A DNA stretch of 64,000 bases from Sphingomonas swuensis (lineage in GTDB: Bacteria; Pseudomonadota; Alphaproteobacteria; Sphingomonadales; Sphingomonadaceae), in assembly GCF_039538045.1 (NCBI RefSeq), contig NZ_BAABBQ010000001.1:2316001-2380000 (forward strand), read 5' to 3'. Under the pieces are notes generated by a model, which saw only the letters and a program-made list of their open reading frames with translations, did not search any database and was not told the origin of the DNA. The position numbers were made by a program, and so were the translations under genes. Positions 34,253 through 37,789 of this stretch are shown here, one piece after another. Within the stretch, counting starts at the first letter, position 1. Each line of letters starts with the position of its first letter.

Positions 34253-34435
34253 ATGACCCAGCCAGTTTCCCTTTTGAAGTCCGAGCAGGTGCGTCGCCAG
34301 ACGATGCTCCTGCGGCTGCAGCTGGCGATGGACGATCCACGCCTGACGCCGGAACTGCGGGCCCGGGTCGAGCTTGGTGCCCGCCGCCTGCGAGCCCTGC
34401 TCCGCCGCGAGCACGCCGCGTCGTTTCCGGCTTGA
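34253..34435 (+). CDS. Small helical hypothetical protein
   Basis: A 60-residue ORF rich in Arg, Leu and Gln (QTMLLRLQLAMDDPRLTPEL), predicted to be helical and basic, ending in HAASFPA. There is no strong Shine-Dalgarno and no recognised family. Its stop overlaps the -35 element of the trp leader promoter, so it is transcriptionally separate from the trp operon. Confidence 0.4.
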   Translation: MTQPVSLLKSEQVRRQTMLLRLQLAMDDPRLTPELRARVELGARRLRALLRREHAASFPA

Positions 34436-34460
34436 CCTGTAGGAGTTCAGCGGCTTTTGT
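34432..34460 (+). promoter_or_regulatory. Promoter of the trp leader/operon
   Basis: TTGACC at 34432-34437, a 17-bp spacer and TTTTGT at 34455-34460. The -35 is near consensus and the -10 weak. The predicted start (34466-34468) coincides with the ATG of the leader peptide, so the leader mRNA would be leaderless, which explains why no Shine-Dalgarno precedes it. Confidence 0.55.
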
Positions 34461-34467
34461 CGCCGCC

Positions 34468-34542
34468 ATGCTTCGCACGCCCTCCTCCTTGCTCGCTCGC
34501 CGCTGGTGGCGCTGGCAGGTCTCGAGCGGCGTGCCGGCCTAG
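34468..34542 (+). CDS. trpL: trp operon leader peptide
   Basis: A 24-codon ORF, ATG 34468 to TAG 34540-34542. It encodes MLRTPSSLLARRWWRWQVSS then GVPA, with three Trp codons (TGG 34504, 34507 and 34513) within four positions. Together with its place ahead of the DAHP synthase-trpE-trpG operon and the downstream hairpins, this identifies a trp attenuation leader. A Trp-rich leader of this kind (WWW in rhizobia) is known upstream of trpE(G) in other alphaproteobacteria. No Shine-Dalgarno lies at the correct distance. This ORF is short and easily missed. Confidence 0.85.
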   Translation: MLRTPSSLLARRWWRWQVSSGVPA

Positions 34543-34606
34543 AACGCTTTCCTCCCGGGCGTTCCAACTCCGACCCGCCGCCTTTCGGCCGGCGGGTTTT
34601 TCTTTG
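34533..34606 (+). terminator. trp attenuator: terminator and competing antiterminator
   Basis: Terminator: ACCCGCCG (34573-34580) pairs with CGGCGGGT (34590-34597), then TTTTTCTTT. Competitor: GCCGGCC (34533-34539), lying at the end of the leader ORF, is complementary to GGCCGGC (34587-34593), the 3' arm of the terminator; GCGGCG (34526-34531) can also pair with the 5' arm (34576-34581). A ribosome that reaches the TAG covers these and lets the terminator form. One stalled at the Trp codons leaves them free. A further hairpin GAACGC/GCGTTC spans 34542-34564. Confidence 0.75.
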
Positions 34607-34653
34607 TCCAGCGTGACAGCCCTGCCGGCCCCATCTCACCGACAGGAATCATC

Positions 34654-35667
34654 ATGATCATCGTACTGAAGCCCGAAGCCCCCACCGACTCCGCCGAGCG
34701 CCTGCTGCGCAAGATCGAGGATGCGGGGTTGAAGCCGCTGCACATGCCCGGCGCCGAGCGCGTGGTTCTCGGCGCGCTCGGCGACGAGCGTGTGCTGGCC
34801 GAGCTCGCCCTCGACAGCGATCCCGCGGTCGAGAGCGTCAAGCCGATCCTCGCCCCCTACAAGCTCGTCAGCCGCGAGCTCCAGGCGCACGACACCGTTG
34901 TCGACGTCGGCGGGGTCAGCATCGGCGGCGACCGGCTGGCGGTGATCGCGGGCCCCTGCGCGGTCGAGACTCCCGAGCAGCTCCACGAGACCGCGCAGGC
35001 GGTGAAGGCGGCGGGCGCGACCCTGCTTCGCGCCGGCGCTTACAAGCCGCGCAGCTCGCCCTACGGCTTTTCGGGCCATGGGCCCGAGGGCTTGCGGATC
35101 CTGCGTGAGGTCGGCGACGACCTCGGCCTGCCAATCGTCACCGAGGTGATGGACACCGCCGACGTCGCGCTGGTCGCCGACAGCGCCGACTGCCTCCAGA
35201 TCGGTGCCCGCAACATGCAGAATTTCGCGCTCCTCCGGGCAGTCGGAGCGACCGATCGCCCGGTGCTTCTGAAGCGCGGTCTCAGCGCCACCATCCAGGA
35301 GTGGCTGCTGGCCGCCGAATATCTGATGGCGGCCGGCAACTCGCAGGTTATCCTGTGCGAGCGCGGGATCCGGACCTTCGAGCCCGCGACCCGCAACACG
35401 CTCGATCTCAACGCGGTCCCCTACGTCAAGGGCAAGACCCACCTGCCCGTGGTGGTCGATCCGAGCCATGGCACCGGCGCGCGCGACCTCGTGCCCCCGA
35501 TGAGCCTCGCCGCTACCGCGGCCGGCGCCGACGGGCTGATGATCGAGGTTCACCGCGATCCCGCGGTCGCCATGTCGGATGGCGCCCAGTCGCTCTACCC
35601 GGCGCAGTTCGAGGCGCTGATGGCGGCGCTTCGCCCGGTTGCGGCGGCGGTCGGGCGATCGCTGTGA
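34654..35667 (+). CDS. aroF: 3-Deoxy-7-phosphoheptulonate synthase (DAHP synthase, type I-beta with N-terminal regulatory domain)
   Basis: A 337-residue enzyme condensing PEP and erythrose-4-phosphate, the first step of the shikimate pathway. The N-terminal ~70 residues are the ferredoxin-like/ACT-type regulatory domain seen in Thermotoga-type enzymes; the barrel has [32 protein letters not shown], the metal/substrate region [10 protein letters not shown] and VVDPSHGTG. It is the first structural gene after the trp attenuator and is coupled to trpE through GTGA, so its expression should respond to tryptophan. Confidence 0.95.
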
Positions 35668-37220
35668 AGGTCGAGGCGCGGGTGCTTGGTCGGCGGCTGC
35701 CGGCGGGCCAGGACCCGCTTGCCGCCTATCGCGCGCTCGGTTGCGGGGAGCCCGGGACGGGGCTGTTCGAGGCGCCCGACGGGCAGGTGCTGGTCATGGC
35801 CCGCGCCTGCGTCCGGGCCGAGGCGCGCGACGGCACGGTGGTGATCGAGGCGCTCAACGCCAATGGCGAGACGCTGCTCGAGGCGCTCGATTCGGCCGCG
35901 CTGGTCGAGCGCCGGACCGACCGCCTGACCCTCGCCTTCGCGTTGCCGAAGAGCGACGACGCAAGCGAACGGCTGCTCGGTGCGCAGCCGCTGCACGCGC
36001 TCCGCGCCCTCCTCTCGGCGGCAGCGGCGCCGTCGGGCGAGCCGTTCGGCGCGGTGCTGCTTGGGGTCGCGGGCTTCGACCTTGCCGGCTGGGGCGAAGC
36101 GATGCCGCCCGCGCCCGCCAGCGACTTTCCCGAGTTCGTCTTCTGGGTCCCCGACACGCTGCTGACCATCGCCCCGGGCGGCGCCGCTCGGCTGCTGTGC
36201 ACCGCCTTCGGCGCCGACGAGCGACACGCCCACGACGCGGCGCGAAGGCTTGAGGAGGGGTTGGCCAAGCTCGGCTCCTCCCTGTCGCGTAGCGATGGGG
36301 AGGTGCCTGCGCGAAGCGCTGACGGAGGGGCCCCTCCACTCGTCGCTTCGCGACCGGTCCCCCTCCCCACCGCCTCCGGCGGCAGGGAGGATCTCTTCAC
36401 CCCCGACCTCGACGATGACGCCTTCGCCGCCCTCGTCATCCGGCTCAAGCAGGAGATCGCCGCCGGCGAGGTCTACCAGATCGTTCCCAGCCGCACCTTC
36501 CGGGGCCCCTGCCCCGACCCGCTCGACGCCTATGCCCGGCTGCGGGCGGCGGAGCCGGCGAGCTACCGCTTCTTCGTCGCCGGGGACGGCTGGACTTTGC
36601 TCGGCGCAAGCCCCGAGACGAGCGTCCGCCTGTCGCCCGGCGGAGCGACGGGTCGCGTGGTCGAGGTCAAGCCGATCGCCGGCACCCGCCCGCGCGGCGC
36701 AAGCCCCGACGAGGACGACCGTCTCGAGGCCGAGATGCGGCTCGACGGCAAGGAACTGGCCGAGCACATGATGCTGGTCGACCTCGCCCGCAACGACGTC
36801 GCCCGGGTTTCCTTGCCCGGGACCCGGCGGGTGGCGAAGCTGCTGACGGTGGAGCGCTTCGCCCGGGTCATGCACCTCGTCTCCTCGGTCACCGGGATCC
36901 TCCGCCCCGGCTATGACGCCTTCGACGCGCTGGCCGCCTGCCTCAACGTGGGGACCTTGGTCGGAGCCCCCAAGATCCGCGCGATGCAGCTGCTCCGTGC
37001 GCACGAGGCGACCCGCCGCGGTCCCTATGGCGGGGCGGTCGGCTGGATCGCTGGCGACGGGCGGATGGACACCGCGGTGGTGATCCGCTCCGCCCTCGTT
37101 TGCGACGGCGTGGCCGCGGTCCGTTCGGGCGCCGGCGTGGTCCACGACAGCGTGCCCGAAGCCGAAGCGGCGGAGACCCGCGCCAAGGCCTCCGCCCTCC
37201 TCGGAGTACTCAGCGCATGA
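35664..37220 (+). CDS. trpE: Anthranilate synthase component I (TrpE) with in-frame palindromic insertion
   Basis: A 518-residue chorismate-utilising subunit of anthranilate synthase. The GTG at 35664 overlaps the DAHP synthase stop. The C-terminal chorismate-binding domain has [45 protein letters not shown] and [15 protein letters not shown], so the catalytic half is intact. Residues ~205-243, between the N-terminal regulatory half and the catalytic domain, are a Ser/Pro/Ala-rich linker encoded by a 116-bp palindrome (see repeat). This linker is dispensable-looking. The N-terminal Trp-feedback motif (LLES) is not clear. Its stop overlaps the trpG start (ATGA). Confidence 0.95.
36276..36391. 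repeat. 116-bp nested palindromic element inside trpE
   Basis: Perfect 9-bp terminal arms TCCTCCCTG (36276-36284) and CAGGGAGGA (36383-36391). Nested inside are TGGGGAGG/CCTCCCCA (36296-36303/36362-36369), GCGAAGCG/CGCTTCGC (36311-36318/36344-36351) and a central 14-bp palindrome GGAGGGG-CCCCTCC (36324-36337). The whole can fold as one long hairpin. Its sequence style (GGGGAGGTG...CGAAGCGCTGACGGAGGGG) matches intergenic REP-like elements common in sphingomonads, here translated in frame. Confidence 0.85.
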
Positions 37221-37789
37221 AGCCCGTCCTCCTCATCGACAATCTCGACAGCTTCACCTTCAACCTGGTCGAGAGCCTCCAGCGGCTGGGTGCCGAGGTC
37301 GCCGTCCGGCGCAACAGCATCGCTGCCGATGCGGCACTTGAGGAAGCGCGGCGAATGAATGCGGTGATCATGATCTCGCCCGGCCCGGGTTCGCCGACCG
37401 AGGCGGGCTGCTGCCTCGAACTCATCGCCCTCGCCAAGGGCCGGGTGCCCGTGATCGGCATCTGCCTCGGTCACCAGGCCATCGTCGAGCAGGCTGGCGG
37501 GACGGTCGCCCGAGCCCCCGAGCCGGTGCACGGCAAGTCGATGCTGCTCGCCCATGACGGTGCGGGGCCATTCGCCGGTCTGCCGAGCCCGGTCCGCGTC
37601 GGCCGCTACCACAGCCTGTGCACCCGCGACCTTCCGGAGCGCTTCACCGTCCACGCGCAGGTGGACGGAATGGCGATGGCCTTCAGCGATCCGCAAGCAC
37701 TCCAGCTCGGACTGCAATTCCACCCCGAGAGCATCCTCACCACCCACGGCGAAGTGATGATGGCGAACGCGCTGGCGCTGTTCGGCTAG
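37217..37789 (+). CDS. trpG: Anthranilate synthase component II (glutamine amidotransferase)
   Basis: The 190-residue class I glutamine amidotransferase supplies ammonia from glutamine to TrpE. It shows [31 protein letters not shown], the nucleophile in [15 protein letters not shown] and the catalytic His-Glu pair in [13 protein letters not shown]. The ATG overlaps the trpE stop. trpD, trpC, trpF and trpBA are absent downstream, so this operon is limited to the commitment steps. Confidence 0.96.

Follow-up and report, generated by a model that had tools for sequence, protein, structure and literature searches.

A tryptophan-rich leader and a terminator precede a DAHP synthase-trpE-trpG operon

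The DNA analysed here (the window) is a 64-kb stretch (C1, 2316001-2380000) of a 2.79-Mb genome that consists of a single contig. Within it a short leader ORF (trpL), an intrinsic terminator and the genes for a class I-beta DAHP synthase, trpE and trpG follow one another in this order (Table 1). The leader ORF starts with ATG at 34468 and has 24 codons plus TAG, and its three TGG codons (at 34504, 34507 and 34513) lie in a Trp-Trp-Arg-Trp cluster, as an earlier note on this DNA had read and as our direct reading confirmed. The same reading verified two other elements of that note: the promoter TTGACC-N17-TTTTGT upstream of the ATG, and the terminator 3' of the ORF, whose stem is formed by ACCCGCC (34573-34579) and GGCGGGT (34591-34597) and is followed by a T-run to 34601. 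The presence of a tryptophan leader and terminator before a DAHP synthase operon is thereby confirmed. On both strands of the window this was the sole case of a short ORF with adjacent Trp codons (WW ORF) and a terminator within 80 nt, being one ORF with three nested start codons.

Table 1. Features of the trpL-DAHP synthase-trpE-trpG locus (positions in the window)
Feature	Positions	Strand	Basis
Promoter: TTGACC (34432-34437), 17 nt, TTTTGT (34455-34460)	34432-34460	+	Sequence
trpL leader ORF, MLRTPSSLLARRWWRWQVSSGVPA then stop	34468-34542	+	Direct reading; Trp cluster in 34/34 leaders
Region 1 (GCACGCC), predicted to pair with 34528-34534 absent a ribosome	34475-34481	+	Lone fold
Regulatory codons TGG TGG CGC TGG (Trp-Trp-Arg-Trp)	34504-34515	+	
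Region 2 (GCGGCGTGCCGGCC), predicted antiterminator 5' strand	34526-34539	+	Invariant core, nascent fold
Insert hairpin GAACGC...GCGTTC within the antiterminator loop	34542-34564	+	Folding
Region 3 (CCGACCCGCCGC), predicted antiterminator 3' strand, overlapping terminator 5' arm	34570-34581	+	
Intrinsic terminator	34573-34606	+	Stem 34573-34597, T-run from 34597; terminator in 34/34 leaders
DAHP synthase, class I-beta, 337 aa	34654-35667	+	NF006421, TIGR01361
trpE, anthranilate synthase component I, GTG start	35664-37220	+	NF010079 best match
trpG, anthranilate synthase amidotransferase component	37217-37789	+	TIGR00566

The downstream genes were identified with NCBIfam profiles: the DAHP synthase (479.8 bits against NF006421, cut-off 335) and trpG (163.7 bits against TIGR00566, cut-off 121) scored above the cut-offs, and trpE had its best match to NF010079 at 449.6 bits, below the cut-off of 471. 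Each gene start overlaps the stop codon of the gene before it. We take the DAHP synthase to consist of a class I-beta enzyme plus an N-terminal domain. Tryptophan attenuation of this DAHP synthase-trpE-trpG operon is supported by 34 homologous leaders (see below). The proposed "fusion" of shikimate entry with the tryptophan branch stands insofar as the genes form one operon; there is no gene fusion.

Between the terminator and the DAHP synthase, CCTGCCGG...CCGACAGG (34621-34646) forms an imperfect stem that includes the probable Shine-Dalgarno sequence of that gene; by eye, similar stems occur in close relatives (L113-L121), and this could possibly constitute a second, translational layer of control. 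Elsewhere the source genome carries a class II DAHP synthase (362 aa, part of the profile missing) on the minus strand at 2659250-2660338 of contig C1 (L032:850-1938), near a trpA match at 2661299-2661997. It is flanked by what we take to be an aroA-like gene and an SDR-like gene. DAHP synthase genes adjoining trpA were seen in three cases in the Sargasso Sea metagenome, according to the available text of PMC2395257.

Conservation of the leader among sphingomonads

In the genus of the source, the DAHP synthase was found at E below 1e-140 in 33 of 61 genomes (in G128 as two pieces), and the operon-type TrpE occurred in the same 33 (in G153 as a piece of 62 residues only). The region 5' of the gene was read in 32 loci (L001-L004 and L113-L140; three of the 33 genomes were without loci), and 31 of these had the leader, L123 being left out with only 113 nt upstream before the contig end. 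Three records were added, two from Sphingomonas (L033 and L036) and one from Sphingomicrobium astaxanthinifaciens (L039), the last linked to the set by its resemblance to L138, to whose leader peptide its own is identical. Each of the 34 leaders read upstream of this enzyme in sphingomonads combines a Trp-cluster ORF with a terminator that begins 23-45 nt past the leader stop codon, in agreement with the earlier note. Apart from the Trp cluster, the leader peptides share little.

Several side observations concern the same genus. The operon is absent from 28 of the 61 genomes; no match to the chorismate-binding domain was found in 19 of the 61 (10 of 47 good-quality genomes), and trpA was present in 59. 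In L002 (G053) a gene divergent from the trpL promoter lies upstream of the leader, and it presumably encodes a TrpD-like protein.

Promoter spacing and a predicted leaderless start

A gap of 7 nt separates the TTTTGT hexamer from the leader ATG. In a standard promoter, a -35 box beginning 36 nt before a base puts that base near +1. Among 33 sphingomonad leaders (L039 was omitted as a near-duplicate of L138) 30 have TTGAC at 35-37 nt from the leader start, on its 5' side (seven at 35, 19 at 36 and four at 37 nt), a count for which, at leaders with several possible starts, the start nearest 36 nt from TTGAC was chosen (nine of the 34 have another in-frame ATG within 30 nt). Base composition predicts ~0.002 such TTGAC per locus at those three positions. 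Over the whole 130 nt upstream, TTGAC was counted 31 times in the 33 leaders, the remaining one at 41 nt (L003); by eye, L114 has TTGATT at 36 nt from the start and L128 has TTGTCA. The spacers of distant loci differ widely, and thus the promoter spacing is not merely a matter of shared DNA.

A strong Shine-Dalgarno sequence (at or below -5 kcal/mol) preceded the leader ORF in none of the 34 loci, and pairing with the 16S 3' end was weak there (mean -1.6 kcal/mol); before the DAHP synthase it was somewhat stronger (mean -3.6 kcal/mol; 4/34 at or below -5), and weak also before many of these genes. Since TTGAC sits ~36 nt before the start codon, that codon would lie at the 5' end of the transcript, give or take a base or two; in the window the predicted transcript start is 34468 or a base or two away. 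Together, the near-fixed TTGAC spacing and the lack of any strong Shine-Dalgarno sequence indirectly support the leaderless start suggested by the earlier note; a leaderless trpL mRNA is, as a prediction, well supported by comparison.

By eye, the bases 3' of the -35 box (TTGACCTGTAGGA, 34432-34444) are alike in about a dozen relatives. A repeated operator, TTGACNTGTWGGA, extending the promoter was considered and rejected, as its single occurrence in the genome is the one in the 34432-34444 region.

A predicted switch between terminator and antiterminator

Folded alone, the RNA of 34466-34650 was more stable than its shuffles (z -2.79): 34475-34484 pairs with the end of the ORF at ~34523-34534, and the terminator forms. 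Folding, which had been proposed as a check, gives the pattern of an ordinary ribosome-mediated attenuator when a translating ribosome is modelled by masking its footprint (15 nt before to 14 nt after the A site) and folding only the RNA downstream. Region 3 was captured in the nascent RNA (probability >0.5) in 34/34 leaders when the ribosome occupied the first Trp codon, in 1/34 when it stood at the stop codon and in 12/34 without a ribosome, a Trp/stop contrast that follows partly from the masking of region 2, for which shuffled spacers are the fairer control. Against these, mean region 3 capture with the ribosome on Trp was 0.76 observed vs 0.38 shuffled; every locus exceeded the mean of its own shuffled controls, the mean fraction of controls at or above the observed value was 0.11, and 0.17 of shuffles reached the capture of the window leader. 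In the full RNA the mean terminator probability was 0.46 when a ribosome occupied the first Trp codon, 0.94 when it stood at the stop codon and 0.81 without a ribosome. For the window leader the full RNA favoured the terminator even with the ribosome on Trp (0.72), and thus its antiterminator would have to win by timing.

The pairing of region 2 with region 3 was also examined across loci. Single loci reached p <=0.05 in 9/34 cases (window leader, p 0.129). When regions were permuted among loci, the duplex became weaker on average (-17.73 for own partners, -16.13 for permuted ones), with none of 5000 permutations as low, a comparison uncorrected for relatedness and in which the own region 2 was the single best partner in 5/33. 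Region 2 lies 21-31 nt beyond the first Trp codon, and in 33/34 leaders a ribosome that has reached the stop codon would have at least part of it within its footprint. Two groups of loci are of note here: i) in ten close leaders GCGGCGTGCCG is invariant despite being read in two frames (AGC GGC GTG CCG, SGVP, in L001; GAG CGG CGT GCC GGC, ERRAG, in L113 and L117), and hence selection appears to act on the RNA and not on the peptide tail; ii) in L137, L138, L140 and L039 the ORF ends right after WWWRSS with a GCGGCG element just past the stop codon, so a terminating ribosome would still cover the element. An insert hairpin of at least 4 bp lies within the antiterminator loop in 23/34 leaders and may draw regions 2 and 3 together.

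The earlier note had placed the switch in the complementarity between the ORF end (34533-34539) and the terminator 3' arm (34587-34593). This 7-nt complementarity exists as described. However, as the sole antiterminator it comes too late and was rejected, because by the time this pairing could arise the terminator hairpin would already be able to fold; pairing of 34526-34539 with 34570-34581, that is, with the 5' arm and the bases preceding it, accounts better for the switch. Tryptophan attenuation, supported by 34 homologous leaders, stands, and a switch acting chiefly through the 3' arm does not.

From the elements, their conservation and the predicted alternative pairings, we infer the exact transcript start, the stalling, the termination and the tryptophan response of what is very probably a ribosome-mediated tryptophan attenuator with a leaderless leader mRNA. 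RNA polymerase would start at the A of the trpL ATG, or a base or two off, and a ribosome would load directly onto the 5'-terminal start codon. When charged tRNA-Trp is abundant, it would reach the stop codon and cover region 2, leaving region 3 to fold into the terminator, and transcription would stop near 34601-34606. When tryptophan is short, the ribosome would stall on the TGG codons, region 2 would remain exposed and could pair with region 3 ahead of synthesis of the terminator 3' arm, and polymerase would continue into DAHP synthase-trpE-trpG. Without translation, region 1 would take region 2 and the terminator would form. By this scheme the first enzyme of the aromatic pathway and the first enzymes of tryptophan synthesis appear to be made mainly when tryptophan is short.

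Alternative explanations

High-G+C DNA gives rise to many spurious ORFs, and a Trp-rich one could happen to precede a terminator. We consider the likelihood of such a coincidence here negligible and rejected it: the Trp-cluster ORF is kept in 34/34 leaders, 12 order-2 Markov surrogates of 64 kb each gave no WW ORF-terminator pair on either strand, and 27 other sphingomonad trpE loci have no WW ORF within 400 nt upstream. If the ORF is genuine, attenuation might still operate as proposed on a longer transcript, with the true promoter upstream and an ordinary 5' UTR. The -10 hexamer TTTTGT is indeed poor (the -10 differs among loci), and the gammaproteobacterial relatives appear to be built in this way; the 30 of 33 TTGAC at 35-37 nt, with just one other within 130 nt, and the want of a strong Shine-Dalgarno sequence in all 34 leaders nevertheless make this arrangement improbable.

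A little less improbable, though still unlikely, is that the terminated leader RNA or its peptide acts in trans in addition to attenuation, as do rnTrpL and peTrpL of Sinorhizobium meliloti, the precedent described in the available text of PMC7298713. The insert loop CUUUCCUCCC (34542-34564) gave sub-threshold matches to anti-hemB (25.6 bits, cut-off 49.5) and suhB (24.1 bits, cut-off 41), hinting at an anti-Shine-Dalgarno sRNA. However, the anti-Shine-Dalgarno potential of the insert was no greater than that of shuffles over the 34 leaders (mean z +0.30; 1/34 below -1.6), and this candidate was rejected as not conserved across them. The scant similarity of the leader peptides outside the Trp cluster also speaks against a trans role, although the rhizobial trans-acting leader peptides are likewise not conserved, as far as the available text of PMC7298713 goes.

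Distribution and likely origin of the module

A DAHP synthase search of 119 genomes of the family gave matches in 37, four of them full-length (E below 1e-140, the source genome included); the other 33 had partial matches of 26-40% identity, which are most likely KDO8P synthases and other relatives. Across the class the enzyme was found at E 1e-90 in 2 of 385 genomes, again counting the source. A phylogeny of the DAHP synthase was built from 47 rows (32 of 80 loci, 14 sphingomonad loci and one other alphaproteobacterium), and in it the 18 sphingomonad rows grouped together (100/98) inside a 28-row clade (100/100) that also held five Gammaproteobacteria, two deltaproteobacterial bins, two Verrucomicrobiota and one Methylomirabilota. 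Of the 80 loci, 11 had trpE or trpG next to the DAHP synthase within the DNA examined: four sphingomonads, five Gammaproteobacteria, L035 (Chthoniobacterales) and L037 (a deltaproteobacterium), the last two having the operon with no WW leader found. A W-W frame occurred in nine of the 74 loci with enough upstream sequence to be scanned, those of L076 and L112 looking like chance.

The trpE genes of other sphingomonads were rejected as the source of the leader. A search of 59 genomes yielded 27 such loci (L144-L170), 38-47% identical to the window TrpE over the aligned part, and in none did the 400 nt preceding the estimated trpE start (unsure in L165, where a contig end is near) contain a WW ORF; a looser scan found W-x-x-W frames and, in the region of the trpE reading frame, one WW frame (L158). 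Given that relatives mostly lack the enzyme and that the other trpE loci are this distant and without a WW ORF, the module was likely gained by horizontal transfer. The attenuator would place the aromatic-pathway entry enzyme under tryptophan control in a lineage whose relatives are mostly without it.

Relation to known systems

Attenuation as a mechanism and the leaderless trpL of Sinorhizobium are already known; the novelty lies in the lineage, in an operon headed by DAHP synthase and in the near-fixed promoter spacing. The leaderless trpL in rhizobia that the earlier note mentioned is borne out by the available text of PMC7298713 and PMC10117765, which establishes for S. meliloti both the leaderless trpL and its attenuation. 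S. meliloti trpL-trpE(G) (rnTrpL, peTrpL) resembles what is predicted for the window: a leaderless Trp leader in an alphaproteobacterium and a terminator before an anthranilate synthase gene, with ribosome-dependent attenuation. It differs in that the first gene is trpE(G), as against a DAHP synthase followed by separate trpE and trpG, and in that its leaderless start is experimental and that of the window inferred; the leader peptides have only the Trp cluster in common (PMC7298713, PMC10117765).

With the enteric trp leader (RF00513, Trp_leader) the window shares Trp codons, the logic of regions 1-4 and a terminator; unlike it, the window has no predicted 5' UTR, places a DAHP synthase first and carries an insert hairpin in the antiterminator loop. 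RF00513 had no match in the window up to E 1 (gathering score 41 bits), and among 15 related loci searched four came near that cut-off but stayed below it, L136 (36.8 bits), L039 (35.6), L004 (33.7) and L121 (27.6). We class the window leader among the ribosome-mediated trp attenuators, with a start predicted to be leaderless, and not as a member of RF00513, and we do not assign it to the rnTrpL-like RNAs of demonstrated dual function. Zymomonas mobilis presumably belongs to the same order as the source of the window. The available text of PMC7566282 lists 119 leaderless cases among 2,675 TSS-gene pairs for that species, and that of PMC2659441 lists an RF00513 leader before trpE in Shewanella. 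Searches of the open-licence literature turned up no report of sphingomonads with an attenuator ahead of DAHP synthase and trpE. Older subscription papers on attenuators and on how trp operons evolved may cover the case.

With the distance between promoter and start nearly fixed, leaderless attenuation can be tested as a principle of design, the question being how a ribosome engages an AUG at the very 5' end early enough to direct a polymerase ~100 nt further on. Relatives in the Gammaproteobacteria, seemingly with 5' UTRs, offer a natural contrast.

Gammaproteobacterial relatives

The trpL-DAHP synthase-trpE operons of Gammaproteobacteria (Ferrimonas L043, Kangiella L038 and L040, and L204-L229) share with the window a Trp-rich uORF upstream of a related DAHP synthase, at least one being present in 26/26 of L204-L229, and trpE adjoins the DAHP synthase in every gammaproteobacterial locus checked (L038, L040, L041, L043, L044 and L204-L208). 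They differ from the sphingomonad loci in three respects: i) TTGAC, where present, lies 64-130 nt before the first leader and in 0/25 at 35-37 nt, and thus a 5' UTR is expected there; ii) 24 of the 26 loci have two Trp-rich uORFs; iii) the Ferrimonas and Kangiella operons continue into further genes, which we take to be trpD and trpC. With rather more doubt than belief, we propose that the attenuated DAHP synthase-trpE-trpG module is common to Gammaproteobacteria and a few sphingomonads, and that it lost its 5' UTR in the latter, becoming leaderless independently of rhizobial trpL. If so, a 5'-terminal AUG would suit the timing of ribosome and polymerase in attenuation and would have been reached more than once.

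In the gammaproteobacterial family of G839 (L205, L206 and L208-L229) the first trpL was found in 23 of 24 loci, and a second uORF, MLTTKVKSWFIWWLQPIYAG or close variants (MNKATTWYLWWLLPIYAG in L226), precedes the DAHP synthase in all 24, mostly by 28-38 nt; no terminator was found after it in these loci. Its 23 twenty-residue copies comprise 19 nucleotide versions that encode 5 peptides, their variable sites fall 3, 4 and 14 times on the first, second and third codon positions, and by eye the stop codon of every copy is TGA with a C after it. The second uORF looks to be selected as a peptide, for whose letters the literature searched held no relevant paper, and it may encode a stalling peptide that senses Trp and governs translation of the DAHP synthase. 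In a further locus, L207 (G742), two tandem Trp leaders, each with its own terminator, lie upstream of the DAHP synthase and apparently form a double attenuator.
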